In this document: piece after piece, positions 7,165 through 53,835 of the stretch
Layout: every line of letters begins with the position of its first letter
Numbering within the stretch: the stretch's first letter is position 1
The notes under the pieces: generated by a model
What the model was told of the DNA's origin: nothing
The model's database searches: none
What the model saw: only the letters and a program-made list of their open reading frames with translations
DNA from: Ferrimonas lipolytica
Lineage (GTDB): Bacteria; Pseudomonadota; Gammaproteobacteria; Enterobacterales; Shewanellaceae
DNA: 64,000 bases
Reading direction: 5' to 3'
Assembly (NCBI RefSeq): GCF_012295575.1
Contig: NZ_CP051180.1
Coordinates: forward strand, 1,798,001-1,862,000
Program-made: the position numbers and the translations under genes

Positions 7165-7438
7165 GGCTATGTACCAACTAAGTGTTGTTCTTTCCAAGGC
7201 TGTTAAAGTACTGGCTAGGCGAGTCGCGATACAAAGGGTAAAGCACTACCGCTATTGCTCTTCTGCCGCATTGGAGCAGTTCAGCGAAGCGTTTTGGACT
7301 GCGACCTAAGGCAAGGGGGATTACAAACGGGGCGGAGCTCCCCGCTAATGCATACAAAATGTGCCGTCGCCACCGCGACATCGTCCCCTAAAAGCACCGA
7401 AGTTAAGATAAGCTTCAACAACTAACTACGACACAGCC
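7165..7438 (-). mobile_element. MITE copy M1 (274 bp), reverse orientation
   Basis: Begins GGCTATGTACC and ends CGACACAGCC. It is flanked by a perfect 8-bp direct repeat TTGTTAAT (7157-7164 and 7439-7446). It contains the family core: the CGCTTCGCTG block, the GGAGCTCC palindrome and the GTCGC/GCGAC hairpin. Orientation is defined by the end carrying CGTAGTTAG being on the right. Confidence 0.88.
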
Positions 7439-12347: not shown

Positions 12348-12602
12348 GGCTTTGTACCAACTAAATGTTGTGCTAACCAATACTGTTAAAGCACTGGCTA
12401 GGTGCGTCCCGATACAGAAGAATAAAGCATTAACGCCTTTGAACGTCTGTCACATTGGAGTGCGACCTAAGGCAAGGGGGAATACAAAGGGGGGCGGAGC
12501 TCCCCGCTAATGCATACAAAAATGTGCCATCGCCACCGCGACATCCTCCCCTAAAGCACCGAAGGCTTGAGATAAACTTCAACAGCTAACTACGACACAG
12601 CC
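12348..12602 (-). mobile_element. MITE copy M2 (255 bp), reverse orientation
   Basis: Starts GGCTTTGTACC and ends CGACACAGCC. It is flanked by CTTTTTA / CTTTTTTA, an 8-bp duplication with one T-run slip. It is inserted in the U-tract of the nap terminator. The central CGCTTCGCTG region is partly deleted compared with other copies. Confidence 0.85.
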
Positions 12603-15034: not shown

Positions 15035-15162
15035 AGTGGTTATCCCTCCACGCAGTAGTGGTTAAAGCTAGCTAACTCTGCGCCAATGTACAGTTGATTG
15101 TGGTAATACCATCGAGTTAGCCGTATTGGTTGAACACAAAATATGAACCGGTCATAAATAAC

Positions 15163-15708
15163 GGCTCTGTTGTAGCCAGCTGTTGAGATTTACCTCAGGC
15201 CTTTGGCTGTGGTGTTTGAGAGGGCCTATGTCGCGATGCCGACGGCCCCCAACGAGGAGCGTCCACCCTTTTTGAGGCAGTGTCGTAGTTAGCTGTTAAA
15301 GTTGATCTTAAGACTTCGGTGCTTTGGAGGGAGGATGTCGCGGTGACGACGGCACATTCTTGTCTGCATTAGCGGGAAGATTCGTCCCCTTTGGAATCCC
15401 GCCTTGCCTTAGGTTGCACTCCAAAGCGCTTCGCTGGACTGCTCCAATGCGACAGAAGGTCAACGGCGGTAGTGCTTAACCCCTTGTATCGACGCTCCCC
15501 TAGCCGGTGCTTTAACTGTATTAGAAAGAACAACACTTAATTAGTACACAGCCCTTTTTTGCCCTAGGTCGTAATCCAAAACGCTTCGCTCGACTACTCC
15601 AATGCGGCAAAAGATCAATGGCGGTAGTGCTCTCTGCCTTGTATCGGGACGCAGCCAGCCGGTGCTTTAACAGTATTGGTTGGCACAACACCTAGTTGGT
15701 ACAGAGCC
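15163..15708 (+). mobile_element. MITE copy M3-outer, split by a nested copy
   Basis: The left half is 15163-15275 (GGCTCTGTTGTAGCC...) and the right half 15554-15708 (...GGTACAGAGCC). Joining them restores the family middle region. Outer flanks TAAATAAC and TAAATAAA form a 7-of-8 target duplication. More diverged than the inserted copy, as expected for an older insertion. Confidence 0.88.
15276..15553 (+). mobile_element. MITE copy M3-inner (278 bp), nested
   Basis: A full-length copy running from GGCAGTGTCGTAG to GTACACAGCC, sitting inside the CCCTTTTTG stretch of the outer copy. Flanks CTTTTTGA and CTTTTTTG are a near-perfect 8-bp duplication. Confidence 0.88.
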
Positions 15709-15770
15709 TAAATAAACGCTGAAACCGAGGTTCCAGCGTTATATTTTTTATGTGATGAACAGCAAGTTGG

Positions 15771-18700
15771 TTAACTCACCTTTTTCATCAACACCGTATT
15801 TTCTTCATTGAGCTGTTGTTCCAGCTTTCGACTGACAAACTCAGGGCTGTTGGTGTGCCTTGCGAGCAAGTGATACACAACTGGGATCACCAATAGGGTA
15901 AACATGGTCGCGACCGTAATACCGGTCATCACCACTACACCAATCACAAAGCGTGTTTCAGCGCCGGCACCACTGGCGAGCACCAATGGGATCGCGCCAG
16001 CTGCGGTGGTGATCCCAGTCATTAGGATTGGTCGCAGGCGAGCCTGTGCTGCCTCGATAATCGCCTCCTCAAACGGGCTGCCCTGATCACGTAGCTGGTT
16101 AGCGAACTCCACTATCAAAATGCCATTCTTAGCTGCCAAGCCGATCAACATAATGATGCCAATCTCTGAATAGATGTTGAGGCTTTGATCGGTGAAGTAC
16201 AGCCCCAGCAAAGCACCAAAGGTTGCTAATGGCACGGTCAGCATGATCACCAACGGATGCACGTAGCTTTCAAACTGCGCCGCCAAAACCAAGAACACCA
16301 CAACCAATGCAAGCGCAAATACAAATATCACGCCGGAACCGGACTCTTGGTAGTCGCGCGATGGCCCTTTATAACTAACCACCACCTCCTCTGGGAGCTT
16401 GTCCGCTACTATGGCATTGAGTGAGGATAAAGCTTCACCCAAGGTGTACCCTTCCGCTAGGTTGGCCTCAATCGTGATAGCACGTAGACGATTAAAGCGG
16501 TTCAACCGCGGTGCACTGGCGTACTCCTCAACTGTGACGAGATTGGAGAGCGGGATAAGTTCGCCACTGCGTTCAGAACGAACATAAAGCCCTTCCATAT
16601 CGGTCGCGTTGTTTTGCCTATCCCGTTGCCCTTCAATAATCACATCGTACTCTTCACCACGCTGAACAAAGGTGGTGACGTAGCGGGAGCCTAGCATCGA
16701 CTCCAACGTCGAGCCGATGTTACGGATGGAAACCCCAAGATCAGCGGCACGGTCGCGGTCAATCTCAACCCGAAACTGCGGCTTGGTCTCTTTATAATCG
16801 TGGTCTAGGCCAGTTAGACCGGGGTTGTTGCGCGCCTCAGCAATCAAAATATCTCGCCATTGCGCTAACTCCTCATAGGAACCACCACCTATAACAAACT
16901 GCACTGGCTTACCAACACCGCGACCAAAAGCCTGGCGCATTACCGGAAACGCTCTAACTCCAGCCAGATCACTCAGACGCTGACGAATGTCAGCAGTGAT
17001 CTCATTGGCCGGGCGCCGCTGTGACCAATCAGCCAGATTAATGATCGCCATACCACCTGAAAAATCAGCGGTATTGCCAAAGCCGCGAGGCGCTCGGATC
17101 AACAAGCGGTTGATTTCACCTGTTTCCACCAATGGCATCAGCCGGTGTTCAACCTCATTCATGTACTCGGATATTTGTTCAAAGGAGGCGCCTTCAGGCC
17201 CATTGACCATAACAAACATCGAACCACGATCTTCTTTTGGAGAAAACTCACTCGGTAATTTGGTCACCAACCAACCGGTACCAGCGAACGCCACGACGAT
17301 AATCAGCACAACTAGCAGTGGGTGCTGAACCCACTCCGTTAGCGAATTACGGTAGTGGCGCTTAACCACATTCAACGCCGCATCTATCTTCCGGCTCAAC
17401 CAAGGTTCTGTCTCTACTGGTTTGAGGATGTTGGCTCCCATCATTGGGCTCAGCGTTAACGCAGTTAGCGATGACAGCAACACCGCTGAACTCATGGCGA
17501 TTGAAAATTCTCGGAACAACTTGCCCAGGTCTCCCTCCAAAAAACCGATAGGTAGGAATACCGCAATCAACACTAAGGTAGTAGCGACGATGGCAAAACC
17601 AACCTGACGGGCACCAAGAAATGCCGCTTTAAGCGGTGGTTCGCCCATCTCGATACGACGGTGGATATTTTCGAGCATAACAATGGCGTCATCGACCACC
17701 ATACCGATGGCGAGGATCATCGCTAATAAGGTCAGCAGGTTGATGGAGTAACCCAGTGCATACAGCACGATAAAGGTACCAATAAGCGAAACCGGGACCG
17801 TAAGCGCTGGGATTAACATGGCGCGAACACTACCAAGGAACAAGAAGATCACCAATACCACCAACCCCATCGCAATAAACAGGGTGTTGTAAACCTCATC
17901 AACGGAGGCTTGAATAAATACCGATGAGTCGTAGGATCGCGCCAGATGCATCCCTTCAGGCAGGGTTTGGTTTAACTCTTCCACTAGCTTATTAACGTCG
18001 CGAGCAACCGCAAGCGTGTTGGCGGTTGATTGGCGCGTAATACCAACACCAATCATGTCTTGTTGATTGCCACGGAAGGTGATGCGTTCCTCCTGCGAGC
18101 CAAGCTCAACGGTGGCAACGTCTGCAAGACGGATCCGATAATCATCTTCACCGCTACCAATCACCAGTTGGGCAAAGTCATCTGGCTCGACGTAGCTGCG
18201 CTGCACTCGAACCGAAAAGATTCGCGACTTCGATTCAAGGTAGCCCGCTGGTAGTTCAACGTTTTCCGCCCGCAGCGCGGCTTCAATATCGCCAACGGTA
18301 ACACCACGAGCCGCAAGTTTTTGCCGGTCAATCCAGATCCGCACCGCATAGTTCTTAGCGCCACCAAGGTAAACATCTGCCACCCCATCCAACACCGAAA
18401 AACGGTCTTTCAGATAACGGTTAGCGAAATCCGTTAGCTCAATACTATTAAGGCGATCAGATTCCAAATTGAGCCACATAATAACTTCAGAACTGCCGGA
18501 GGCCTTGTTTACCTCCGGTGGATCCGCTTCATCAGGCAGGTTGTCTAAGATCCGTGAGATACGATCTCGTACATCGTTCGCTGCTGCATCAATATCTCGA
18601 CCGATGTCAAACTCTAAGGTTACCGACGACTGGCCATCACTACTGGAGGAGATGATGTCACGGATCCCCTCAATTCCAGAGACTCGATCCTCAACGATAC

Positions 18701-18893
18701 GCGTTATTCGACTCTCAACAATTGCGGCAGAGGCGCCATTATAGTTAGTGCGAATCTCAACCACCGGTGGATCGATGCTTGGATACTCTCGCAGCGGTAG
18801 TTTGTCGAACGACACCATACCAAACGCGATAATCAATAAGCTTAAGACTGAAGCGAAGACCGGTCTTCGAACCGATAGATCAGTGATCATCAT
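15771..18893 (-). CDS. RND (HAE-1 type) efflux permease
   Basis: 1,040 residues, normal for inner-membrane RND pumps. It has the N-terminal helix FASVLSLLIIAFGMVSFDKLPLREYPSIDPP, the TM4 proton-relay pair in GMVVDDAIVMLENI, and Lys in GLAAKNGILIVEFANQ. Two large periplasmic porter domains lie between. It exports drugs or other amphiphiles with proton antiport. Its ATG directly abuts the adaptor stop codon. No outer-membrane channel gene is adjacent, so a TolC-like channel elsewhere is presumably shared. Confidence 0.92.
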   Translation of the reverse strand: MMITDLSVRRPVFASVLSLLIIAFGMVSFDKLPLREYPSIDPPVVEIRTNYNGASAAIVESRITRIVEDRVSGIEGIRDIISSSSDGQSSVTLEFDIGRDIDAAANDVRDRISRILDNLPDEADPPEVNKASGSSEVIMWLNLESDRLNSIELTDFANRYLKDRFSVLDGVADVYLGGAKNYAVRIWIDRQKLAARGVTVGDIEAALRAENVELPAGYLESKSRIFSVRVQRSYVEPDDFAQLVIGSGEDDYRIRLADVATVELGSQEERITFRGNQQDMIGVGITRQSTANTLAVARDVNKLVEELNQTLPEGMHLARSYDSSVFIQASVDEVYNTLFIAMGLVVLVIFLFLGSVRAMLIPALTVPVSLIGTFIVLYALGYSINLLTLLAMILAIGMVVDDAIVMLENIHRRIEMGEPPLKAAFLGARQVGFAIVATTLVLIAVFLPIGFLEGDLGKLFREFSIAMSSAVLLSSLTALTLSPMMGANILKPVETEPWLSRKIDAALNVVKRHYRNSLTEWVQHPLLVVLIIVVAFAGTGWLVTKLPSEFSPKEDRGSMFVMVNGPEGASFEQISEYMNEVEHRLMPLVETGEINRLLIRAPRGFGNTADFSGGMAIINLADWSQRRPANEITADIRQRLSDLAGVRAFPVMRQAFGRGVGKPVQFVIGGGSYEELAQWRDILIAEARNNPGLTGLDHDYKETKPQFRVEIDRDRAADLGVSIRNIGSTLESMLGSRYVTTFVQRGEEYDVIIEGQRDRQNNATDMEGLYVRSERSGELIPLSNLVTVEEYASAPRLNRFNRLRAITIEANLAEGYTLGEALSSLNAIVADKLPEEVVVSYKGPSRDYQESGSGVIFVFALALVVVFLVLAAQFESYVHPLVIMLTVPLATFGALLGLYFTDQSLNIYSEIGIIMLIGLAAKNGILIVEFANQLRDQGSPFEEAIIEAAQARLRPILMTGITTAAGAIPLVLASGAGAETRFVIGVVVMTGITVATMFTLLVIPVVYHLLARHTNSPEFVSRKLEQQLNEENTVLMKKVS

Positions 18894-20094: not shown

Positions 20095-20313
20095 GGCTGT
20101 GTCGTAGTTAGCTGTTGAAGTTTATCTTAAGCCTTCGGCTTCACCGATTGCGGTGCTTTAGGGACTATGTCGCAGTGGCGACGGCACATTCTTGTATGCA
20201 TTAGGGGGGAGCTCCGCCCCCTTTGAAATCCCCCTTTGCCTTAGGTCGCAGTCCAAAACGCTTCGCTGGACTGCTCCAATGCGGCAGAAGAACAACATAA
20301 TTGGTACACAAGC
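20095..20313 (+). mobile_element. MITE copy M4 (219 bp), internally deleted
   Basis: Begins GGCTGTGTCGTAG and ends GGTACACAAGC, with a perfect 8-bp direct repeat AATTTTGA on each side (20087-20094, 20314-20321). The segment with the GGCGGTAGTGC block is missing, but both termini remain. Confidence 0.88.
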
Positions 20314-23652: not shown

Positions 23653-23880
23653 GGCTGTGTGCCAACTAAAGGTTGTACTAATCAATACGGTTAAAGCACC
23701 GGCTAGACTCATCCCGATAAAAGGGGCAAAGCACTATCGCCATTGTGCTTCTGCCGCATTGGAGCAGTCCAGCGAAGCGTTTTTGACTGCGGCCTAAGGC
23801 AAAAAGGGGGACGACGCCCCTCTTTGGCTGCCATCGCCACCACGACGTAGCCCCTAGCAAACATCGCAACCGGTACAGAC
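23653..23880 (-). mobile_element. MITE copy M5 (228 bp), at the bcp stop codon
   Basis: Starts GGCTGTGTGCC; the right end is diverged (GGTACAGAC). Perfect 8-bp repeat AAATAAAA (23645-23652, 23881-23888), which includes the bcp TAA stop codon. Confidence 0.85.
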
Positions 23881-23892
23881 AAATAAAACAAT

Positions 23893-25780: not shown

Positions 25781-26059
25781 CACTGTGTACCAACTAAGTG
25801 TTGTTCTTTCCAATGCTGTGAAAGCACCGGCTAGGCAAGTTTTGATACAAAGGGAAAGCACTACCGCCGTTGATCTTCTGCCGCATTGGAGCAGGCCAGC
25901 GAAGCGTATTGGAGTGTGACCTAAAGCAAAGGGGGCGAAACTCCCCCCTAATCCATACAAGACTGTGCCATCGCCACCGCGACATAGTCCCCTCAAAGCA
26001 CCGAAATCGGTGAAACCGAAGGCTTAAGATAAACTTCAACAGCTCACTACGACACGGCC
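25781..26059 (-). mobile_element. MITE copy M6 (279 bp), at the stop codon of the AI-2E gene
   Basis: Ends are CACTGTGTACC and GACACGGCC. A perfect 8-bp repeat TAAAATTA (25773-25780, 26060-26067) includes the stop codon of the AI-2E transporter gene, so the insertion left the protein unchanged. Confidence 0.88.
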
Positions 26060-34625: not shown

Positions 34626-34905
34626 GACTGTGTCGTAGTTAAGTGTTGAGGTTTTTCGGCTTCGCCGATTTCGGTGCTTTAGGGGATAATGTCGCGGTGG
34701 CGACGGCACATTCTTGTATGTATTAGGGGGGAGCTCCGCCCCATTTGGAATCCCCCTTGGCTTAGGTCGCAGTCCAAAACGCTTCGCTGGACTGCTCCAA
34801 TGCGGCAGAAGAACAACGGCGGTAGGCTTAACCCCTTGTATCGGCGCTGGCCTAGCCGGTGTTTTAACAACATTGGAGAGAACAACACTTAGTTGCTACA
34901 CAGCC
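34626..34905 (+). mobile_element. MITE copy M7 (280 bp)
   Basis: Runs from GACTGTGTCGTAG to GCTACACAGCC. A perfect 8-bp direct repeat TTCAGAAA lies at 34618-34625 and 34906-34913. Inserted 25 bases after the OYE stop and before that operon's terminator. Confidence 0.9.
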
Positions 34906-44429: not shown

Positions 44430-44578
44430 GGGCGTTCCTACCTTGGCAATTAGTAAGTTAAGTGTATCACGACAAAGCCAATTGATCGCAGCCCAGAGCG
44501 AACTCATCGAACAATTCAGCACGTCGACTGCGTAGCGAAACAAACCAGTTACGCATTACTGATTAAGGTTAACCAACA

Positions 44579-44697
44579 GCTCCCCCCAAAGGGATGCAAG
44601 AATGTGCCGTCGCCACCGCGACGTCCTCCTCTAAAAGCACCGCAATCGCTGAAGCCGAAGCCTTAAGATAAACTTCAACAGCTAACCACGTTACAAT
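44579..44697 (-). mobile_element. MITE copy M8, truncated and decayed (~119 bp)
   Basis: Only the CGTAGTTAGC-side part of the family is recognisable: AGCTCCCC, the GTCGCCACCGCGAC hairpin, and AAACTTCAACAGCTAACCACG. The terminus is degraded to TTACAATC. Flanks AACCAAC and AACCAAT may be the remains of a target duplication. Confidence 0.7.
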
Positions 44698-45384: not shown

Positions 45385-45575
45385 CGCCTTGTTTACCAAG
45401 CTAGGACTCCGTCGAATTCTAGCTTGGCTGCGCTCAAAAAATAACAGCTAATTCTTTAAAGCATCTCAACCAAACAAGTAACAAATTACCATTTGCGCTT
45501 CATTCGGTATAACGATAAAACTATTGGTTAGAAGAACAGCAGTAACAGCCAAAAATCGTTAATCGGCATTATTTG

Positions 45576-45800
45576 GGGCTATGTCGCGGTGGCGACGGCA
45601 CATTCTTGTATGCCTTTTTTGGGGGGAGCTCCGTCCCCCTTTGAAATCCCACTTTGCCTTAGGTCGCAGTCTAAAACGCTTCGCTGGACTGCTCCTATGC
45701 GGCATAAGATCAACGGCGGTAGTGCTTTCCCCTTGTATAGAAACTTACCTAGCCGGTGCTTTAATGCATTGGAAAGAACAACACTTAGTTGGTACACAGC
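45576..45800 (+). mobile_element. MITE copy M9 (225 bp), left-end deletion derivative
   Basis: Starts GGGCTATGTCGCGGTGG, corresponding to an internal family site, and ends GGTACACAGC. A perfect 8-bp direct repeat ATTATTTG (45568-45575, 45801-45808) still brackets it. Confidence 0.85.
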
Positions 45801-48696: not shown

Positions 48697-48988
48697 GGCT
48701 GTGTCGTAGTTAGCTATCGAAGTTTATCTTAAGCCTTCGGCTTCACCGATTCTGGTGCTTTTAGGGGACTATGTCGCGGTGGCGACGGCACATTCTGGTG
48801 TGCATTAGGGGGGAGCTTCGCCCCCGTTGGAGTCCCCCTTTGCCTTAGGCCGCCGTTCAAAACGCTTCGCTGAACTGCTCCAATGCGGCAGAAGATCAAT
48901 AGCGGTAGTGCTTTACCCTTGTATCGCGACTCGCCTAGCCAATTATTTAATAGCCTTGGAAAGAGCAACACTTAATTGGTACACAGCA
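48697..48988 (+). mobile_element. MITE copy M10 (292 bp), upstream of purM
   Basis: Starts GGCTGTGTCGTAG and ends GGTACACAGCA. The 8-bp repeat CTAATTTG is perfect (48689-48696, 48989-48996), and identity extends outwards to GCACTAATTTGGG. It is the longest copy and sits in the divergent upp-purM promoter region. Confidence 0.92.
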
Positions 48989-53543: not shown

Positions 53544-53834
53544 GGCTATGTCATGGTTAGCTGTTGAGATTTACCTCAAGCCTTCGGCTTTACCGATTGT
53601 GGTGTTTGAGAGGGGCTATACCACGGTGACTACGGCACATTTTTATATGCACTAGGAGGGGAGCTTCGTCCCGTTGGGAATTCCCCTTGCCTTAGGTCGC
53701 AGCCCAAAACGCTTCGCTGGACCACTCCTATGCGGCAGAAGATCAATGGCGGTAGTGCTTATCCCTTGTATCAGGACACTCCTAGCCACTGCTTTAACAG
53801 CATTGGCAAGAACAACACTTAGTTGGTACACAGC
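53544..53834 (+). mobile_element. MITE copy M11 (291 bp)
   Basis: From GGCTATGTCATGG to GGTACACAGC, with a perfect 8-bp repeat CGAAAAAA (53536-53543, 53835-53842). The right-hand repeat is part of the U-tract of the PBP1C gene's terminator. Confidence 0.9.
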
Positions 53835-53835
53835 C

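Follow-up and report, generated by a model that had tools for sequence, protein, structure and literature searches.

A nested MITE in Ferrimonas lipolytica and the preference of its family, and of an IS1595-family clade, for terminator-like hairpins

Short dispersed repeats comparable to the one described here are known from Coxiella burnetii, where QMITE1 and QMITE2, with 45 and 78 copies, together make up 0.93% of the genome (PMC5896051). They are short, with inverted ends and direct repeats, and are thought to be immobile now; an IS1111 was found inserted in QMITE2 (PMC5896051). Some mobile elements aim at hairpins: terminators are the insertion sites of group IIC introns (PMC4424553), and certain ISs are directed to REP palindromes (PMC1525189). 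The IS1595 family was overrepresented between genes in a survey of ISs (PMC9208149), an excess that fits the terminator preference reported below.

We analyzed a stretch of 64,000 nucleotides of Ferrimonas lipolytica (contig NZ_CP051180.1, positions 1,798,001 to 1,862,000), hereafter the window, in which a MITE has been split by another copy of its own family. This MITE is about 290 bp long, has 24-bp imperfect terminal inverted repeats (TIRs; GGCTGTGTCGTAGTTAGCTGTTGA), is flanked by 8-bp target duplications, carries no gene, hence no transposase gene, and occurs in many copies. It resembles QMITE1 and QMITE2 in its short length, inverted ends, direct repeats, and in the insertion of one element in another, but differs from them by its number of loci (roughly 370-390, about 2.5% of the sampled DNA), its link to IS1595, and its preference for terminators. 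Insertion at a hairpin followed by a T-tract is common to the Ferrimonas element and group IIC introns. The latter are retroelements, moving by RNA and reverse transcriptase and without target duplication, whereas the Ferrimonas system consists of a DDE-type IS and its MITEs. Membership in the group II introns was considered and rejected, as there is no Rfam match at the gathering score in the window, no ORF of at least 60 aa in 15163-15708, and the presumed driver is an IS1595 transposase. The ISs aimed at REP palindromes likewise choose dispersed extragenic palindromes, but they belong to other transposase families with other targets, and the hairpins and T-tracts used in Ferrimonas have no evident shared stem sequence. 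With the IS1595 family (NF033547, PF12762), the presumed driver IS shares its transposase and the 8-bp duplications that are a trait of this family; the clade studied here sits largely at terminator hairpins, whereas a more distant member (in genomes G014 and G183) mostly sits between CTG(T/G) and (A/C)CAG. Among the titles and abstract openings listed by literature searches that covered few subscription journals, we found neither a report of an IS (DDE-type) or MITE aimed at terminators nor literature on MITEs in Ferrimonas.

A nested MITE is on its own ordinary, and neither nested MITEs nor IS1595 elements are new as such. The lasting interest lies in the terminator preference of the IS1595 clade and its MITEs. 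The reading we prefer, to which we give a probability of about 0.8, is that the MITE was moved in trans by an IS1595-family transposase preferring terminator T-tracts, with an older copy inserted first and a younger one then nested within it.

The nested copies of the window and their family

Within 15163-15708, a family copy of about 290 bp (15276-15553) splits an older copy. Using an nhmmer model built from 42 copies, we found that the left part of the outer copy matches consensus positions 2-93 (15164-15246), the inner copy the full consensus 1-291 (15276-15553, 292 bits), and the right part of the outer copy positions 141-290 (15557-15707), all on the plus strand, with the two outer halves colinear with the consensus. 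The left half of the outer copy (15163-15267, plus strand, delimited by nhmmer and the global alignment of the joined halves) bears the left TIR GGCTCTGTTGTAGCCAGCTGTTGA, and the right half (15562-15708, plus strand) the right TIR ...TAGTTGGTACAGAGCC. The inner MITE is complete, with 278 bp between and including the TIRs GGCAGTGTCGTAGTTAGCTGTT... and ...AATTAGTACACAGCC. A sequence-only reading of this DNA had placed the complete copy in the CCCTTTTTG run of a second copy, and the run is as described. It had also held that the joined halves form a normal family middle. Once the inner copy and one 8-mer are taken out, they do align with the consensus from end to end (global alignment, 207 of 258 aligned positions identical, 80%), and the failure to align across the junction that had been named as fatal to the idea did not occur; the outer copy is short around the junction, so about 30 bases align loosely at this point.

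The outer copy lies between TAAATAAC (15155-15162) and TAAATAAA (15709-15716), which agree at 7 of 8 positions and confirm the duplication previously proposed. Between random pairs of window 8-mers with the same spacing, such agreement has a frequency of 0.036% (25 of 7988 when both are AT-rich). The repeats flanking the inner copy, CTTTTTGA (15268-15275) and CTTTTTTG (15554-15561), agree at 6 of 8 positions without gaps (0.45% of random pairs; 78 of 8101 AT-rich ones): the single duplicated 8-mer claimed for the inner copy holds only loosely. A 6/8 duplication is not unusual in this family, because most of the nine sites of this class are T- or A-runs (by eye).

Recombination between neighboring copies, instead of transposition into a copy, might also have produced the arrangement, and arrays suggestive of it do exist: at 1028.2-1028.8 kb, right parts of the MITE occur three times head to tail, and two other loci (L095, L202) are without the outer left half. 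In the window, both outer ends, the 7/8 outer duplication, the colinear halves, and the 6/8 inner duplication are all found together, which makes recombination very improbable here. Past mobility, the insertion of a MITE in a MITE, and the prior insertion of the outer copy are supported.

On the minus strand, a hairpin, then TTTATTTA, then the MITE follow one another. TTTATTTA is the minus strand of the right outer duplication (15709-15716) and forms the T-tract of the adjoining intrinsic-terminator-like hairpin (15717-15738, minus strand; stem of 9 bp, loop of 4 nt, -11.8 kcal/mol), which is missing from the output of a simple terminator pattern scanner. The hairpin lies downstream of, and at the 3' end of, an ORF of 1040 aa situated outside the element (15771-18893, minus strand), which we take to be an RND-type transporter; the transporters of Ferrimonas senticii and an uncultured Ferrimonas match it at 88-91% identity. 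In F. senticii, there is no family match in the flank examined at the nested locus. The strain with the outer copy alone that the sequence-only reading had proposed to look for was not found among the 14 genomes of the genus, three of which, including that of the window, match family DNA. In the uncultured Ferrimonas, a longer relative with like ends occupies the corresponding place (L082:7120-7900), where a hairpin follows the same transporter gene and A-rich 8-mers flank the relative; this may be the same insertion or an independent reuse of the site.

The genome is a single contig of 4.13 Mb, of which we sampled 864 kb, i.e., the window and 40 evenly spread stretches of 20 kb. This set contains 82 family loci, which cover 2.5% of the DNA; the 800 kb outside the window account for 71, and extrapolation gives about 370-390 loci in the genome. 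The other 11 lie in the window, a density about twice that of the remaining sample. Besides the nested pair, nhmmer finds full-length copies with perfect 8/8 duplications at 7165-7438 (minus strand, ATTAACAA), 25783-26059 (minus, TAATTTTA), 34627-34905 (plus, TTCAGAAA), 48697-48987 (plus, CTAATTTG), and 53544-53835 (plus, CGAAAAAA, adjoining a hairpin of -12.8 kcal/mol), a copy with a 7/8 duplication adjoining a hairpin of -9.0 kcal/mol at 12348-12602 (minus), and partial copies at 20095-20297 (plus, consensus 1-204), 23653-23883 (minus, 40-291), and 44578-44695 (minus, 4-121). A further partial copy (45572-45800, plus, consensus 65-290) shares 220 bases with a 104-aa ORF (315 bases in all) that has no proven meaning. 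Short forms of about 105 and 200 bp, which have lost the middle, recur. The initial scoring covered 40 of 320 candidates, so the copies first gathered resemble the inner copy most closely. Among 65 full-length copies, the duplication was matched at 8/8 positions in 34, 7/8 in 17, 6/8 in 9, and fewer in 5; in the 864-kb set, 61 of the 67 copies with both ends readable (partial copies left out) have 6 to 8 matching bases.

Could these repeats be a structured RNA or a regulatory element spread by duplication? The copies are mostly outside long ORFs, and owing to its inverted ends the entire repeat can fold back on itself. Yet the window has no Rfam match at the gathering score, one typical copy has a fold z-score of just -0.79, and neither the 8-bp duplications nor the matching IS ends would be expected, so that we regard this as the least probable of the alternatives, hardly to be entertained.

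The nested copies differ in age. Identity to the consensus is 80% for the outer copy against 91% for the inner one (250 of 276 positions, 90.6%), which answers the divergence check suggested by the earlier reading: the outer copy is the more diverged. In an alignment of 84 sequences, the outer copy has a median identity to the others of 0.749 and a terminal branch of 0.141 (rank 2 of 84), the inner copy 0.845 and 0.062 (rank 27 of 84), and the two fall in different small clades. This fits two episodes of activity. The discrete waves that had been claimed are not established, because nesting proves order only and the nearest-neighbor identities, with a median of 0.919 and a maximum of 0.962, resemble those of a single old expansion, drawn out and now over. 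Since no pair among the 84 exceeds 96.2%, the sampled burst is old. The sample has no near-identical copies and both IS remnants found are decayed, which suggests that the family is now silent.

Terminator-like hairpins at the insertion sites

We counted a site as terminator-like on two conditions: a single hairpin of -9 kcal/mol or lower had to end no more than about two bases from the duplicated 8-mer, which itself had to contain four or more T on the hairpin strand. Hairpin tests used only sites with at least 6 matching duplication bases (60 of 65 in the first set; 61 of 67 in the 864-kb set), and three clusters in L139 and L237, together with the one in the window, were assigned by hand. 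In the first set, 27 of the 60 sites count, against 7.3% of AT-matched control positions outside ORFs and 9.3% when controls are also matched for runs. In the 864-kb set, this holds for 30 of the 61 sites whose duplication is recognisable: the duplicated 8-mer serves as the T-tract of an adjoining hairpin, the layout of an intrinsic terminator. These 30 include the outer copy of the window, and the inner copy belongs to the 31 that miss the threshold. The hairpin is at the left end of the MITE in 14 cases and at the right end in 16; hence, there is no orientation preference. The association is also sharply localized. When the 8-mer is slid along the empty sites, the hairpin fraction is 0.49 at offset 0 and falls to 0.00-0.03 at -8 to -20 and 0.00-0.05 at +8 to +20, climbing again to about 0.1 near 30 bases from the site, probably at the far side of the hairpins. 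Colocation with hairpins is a preference of the IS1595 clade and its MITEs, not a rule.

One might argue that the target is just an AT-rich 8-mer bounded by G or C, the hairpins being incidental to the composition of terminators. In line with this, 27 sites with no hairpin mostly have G or C at nearby flanking positions. With controls matched for AT content, run length, and G/C in the three bases flanking each side (the inner copy was left out, and then 13 of 60 sites with too few matched controls were dropped), hairpins remain at 22 of 47 sites where 8.7 are expected, and none of 20000 simulations reaches 22. This composition-only target seems unlikely to us, although it is the strongest of the competing accounts.

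According to our preferred reading, the IS and the MITEs would take as their duplicated 8 bp the T-tract directly following an intrinsic terminator hairpin, and the remaining sites would be AT-rich octamers next to G or C bases. Insertion duplicates the T-tract, so the hairpin would retain an adjoining one; the upstream gene would therefore probably keep its terminator and the insertion be nearly harmless, which in turn would explain several hundred copies. In the window, the older copy would have entered the T-tract beside the hairpin of the RND gene, and the younger copy would later have entered the older one at its own internal hairpin and T-run. A transposase clade choosing terminators would offer a testable reason for a MITE family reaching several hundred copies in a bacterium, and the old and young copies give means to ask whether terminators still work after insertion. 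By a related count over the sample, the family occupies 27 terminator-like sites and leaves 144 free, so that about one in six is filled. An ORF of at least 120 aa runs across the joined site in 3 of the 53 testable cases (of 60), too weak a signal for claiming broken genes.

An IS1595-family IS as the presumed driver

The genome carries one IS1595-family (PF12762) relic of 1029 bp, whose decayed reading frame has 6 TGA, 1 TAG, and 2 TAA. Its ends differ from the left end of the MITE at 3 and 4 of 24 positions, and it is flanked by TATTAAAA/TATTAAAG. Another Ferrimonas (G005) carries an intact IS of 1023 bp encoding a 315-aa transposase, with ends that have 2 and 5 mismatches in 24 to the left end of the MITE. 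Its four copies, identical and at contig ends, read as two insertions with 8/8 duplications, CAAAAAAG/CAAAAAAG and CTTTTTTG/CTTTTTTG. The G005 transposase matches NF033547 (IS1595, NCBIfam) at 1.3e-54 with 185.4 bits (cut-off 75), and the driver IS matches PF12762 with 42.9 bits (cut-off 27). The presumed driver IS has both the transposase domain and the 8-bp target duplication of the IS1595 family, and the MITE has ends in common with an autonomous element, the right end more weakly than the left. The MITE consensus matches four IS copies at the ends only, over 23-37 bp; its right end is 78-87% identical to the IS ends over 23 bp, farther than the left, and its interior (consensus 25-267) has no match to these copies better than E 0.35. 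Hence, the MITE is no plain deletion derivative of the IS, and the link between them rests on ends and duplications. On this basis, it was likely mobilized in trans by an IS1595-family transposase.

ISL3 (PF01610) was rejected as a driver because the genome contains no match to it. At genome 3350.6-3352.0 kb (L201), an IS1595 copy reduced to 439 bp by internal deletion keeps both ends of the transposase gene and has MITE-like ends. It was rejected as the source of the MITE, which it matches at the ends only, and it has no duplication (3/8).

Does the preference follow the transposase clade? Protein matches to the IS transposase, many of them weak, were found in 91 of 394 genomes of the order. 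We entered sites where both ends and the duplication are readable; loci with no recognisable end pair were not counted, and automatic end-finding gave no useful ends in G013 and G008. Two loci were left out for a 19-base flank (L173/L248) and for an end coinciding with the contig end (L176/L247), and L183/L218, L219, and L187, which have an end pair and a duplication of 1 or 2 of 8, were not entered as controls. In the close clade, 9 of 14 sites pass the -9 kcal/mol hairpin test (10 of 14 at -7), including 5/5 in G155, whose five IS copies are 87-100% identical to the query copy, and 2/2 in G005. The failures are the decayed relic of the window's genome, two sites in G330, one in G109, and L172 at -8.5 kcal/mol. 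Among 16 more distant IS1595 elements, a duplication of at least 6 bases is present in 14, and none of these 14 passes (9/14 vs 0/14, Fisher p 0.0006). This contrast is strong but not blind, as the clade boundary and the controls were set after a first look at the data and 5 of the 14 clade sites come from one genome. The elements of G014 and G183 (n=13) have CTG(T/G) directly on the left in 12 and (A/C)CAG directly on the right in 12, with none at hairpins.

These data bear on the idea that insertion is nearly random in AT-rich DNA and that terminators are simply where copies survived, selection having removed the rest. Few sites are in long ORFs (3/53 with an ORF of at least 120 aa across), and the copies are old, which would have given selection time to act. 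But survival would permit the whole intergenic stretch, whereas hairpins adjoin the sites only within a few bases, and the outcome differs between ISs: 5/5 in G155 (copies 87-100% identical to the query copy) and 2/2 in G005 (identical copies) against 0/11 duplicated sites, and another target pattern, in G014 (copies 99-100% identical to the query copy). We consider survival a poor explanation, a little poorer than base composition.

We lean towards a more specific version, in which this IS1595 clade would recognize intrinsic terminators by their hairpin and T-tract, not by their sequence, so that a safe landing would have let the MITE family fill about one in six of these sites in the sampled part of the genome and would also have made the hairpin of the element itself a target. 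If true, group IIC introns would have a cut-and-paste counterpart, a DDE transposase whose near-neutral target is defined by structure; the related G014 IS with its different palindromic site is a natural comparison. G014 has twelve copies of this other IS1595-family IS (L274, L277, L280, L282, L284, L286, L288, L290, L292-L295), 99-100% identical to the query copy, with ends 24/24 inverted in the five that were read; most of the twelve lie between CTG(T/G) and (A/C)CAG, so the preferred target is palindromic.

The internal hairpin-T site and other nested or arrayed loci

The family consensus itself contains a hairpin, GGGGG-GAGCTTCG-CCCCC followed by TTTGG, of -10 to -12 kcal/mol. The CCCCTTTGG string is kept in 26 of 42 copies, with -4.4 to -15.7 kcal/mol. 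Junctions between copies fall at the internal 8-mer TTTNNAAT near 211.9, 1028.4, and 2488.0 kb, on its right side, and near 309.5 kb, on its left side with one mismatch; the reversed control patterns of this search gave no match. All four loci have since been altered, with the outer or inner part missing or right parts repeated. In the window, the insertion appears to be at or within a few bases of the internal hairpin-T site (by eye, the alignment being loose). The variant present there has a longer T-run and a weak hairpin, the outer-copy DNA just upstream of the inner insertion folding at -1.3 to -8.7 kcal/mol for 20-40 nt. Given this weak fold and the 6/8 inner duplication, the nested site of the window is better described as a T-run than as a clear hairpin.

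At 3 of the 82 loci in 864 kb (the window, L127, and L133), one copy begins within another, and only the window has a complete inner copy together with both outer ends. Two of the three are at the internal site (the window and L127), L133 being elsewhere, and as far as can be read, all nested copies are in direct orientation. Nesting would need no special cause, as it would follow from the target preference.

Other loci show more complex arrangements. At L130:9391-10299 (genome 909391-910299), at a terminator-like hairpin, a single outer duplication, TTTTTGTT, encloses three tandem copies with AAATAAAA 8-mer spacers, which might be explained by transposition of a dimer as one unit. The same architecture is found at L124:151-572 (genome 819178-819599), where a 105-bp short copy and a full copy, with CTTTTTGG between them, share one outer duplication, CGATTTAA. 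The head-to-tail array near 1028.2-1028.8 kb (L242:1284-1822) consists of consensus 80-291, 128-291, and 128-276, joined at TTTGCAATCCCC, and probably arose by unequal crossing-over after a nested insertion. At L120:151-443 (genome 3120458), a copy lies between facing hairpins with a T-tract and an A-tract (CTTTTTTG / CAAAAAAG) and has no shared duplication, perhaps as a result of recombination between two copies. Finally, the copies at L139:9755-9845 and L104:1-141 were inserted right next to an older and much diverged relative, which hints that related repeat families existed earlier.
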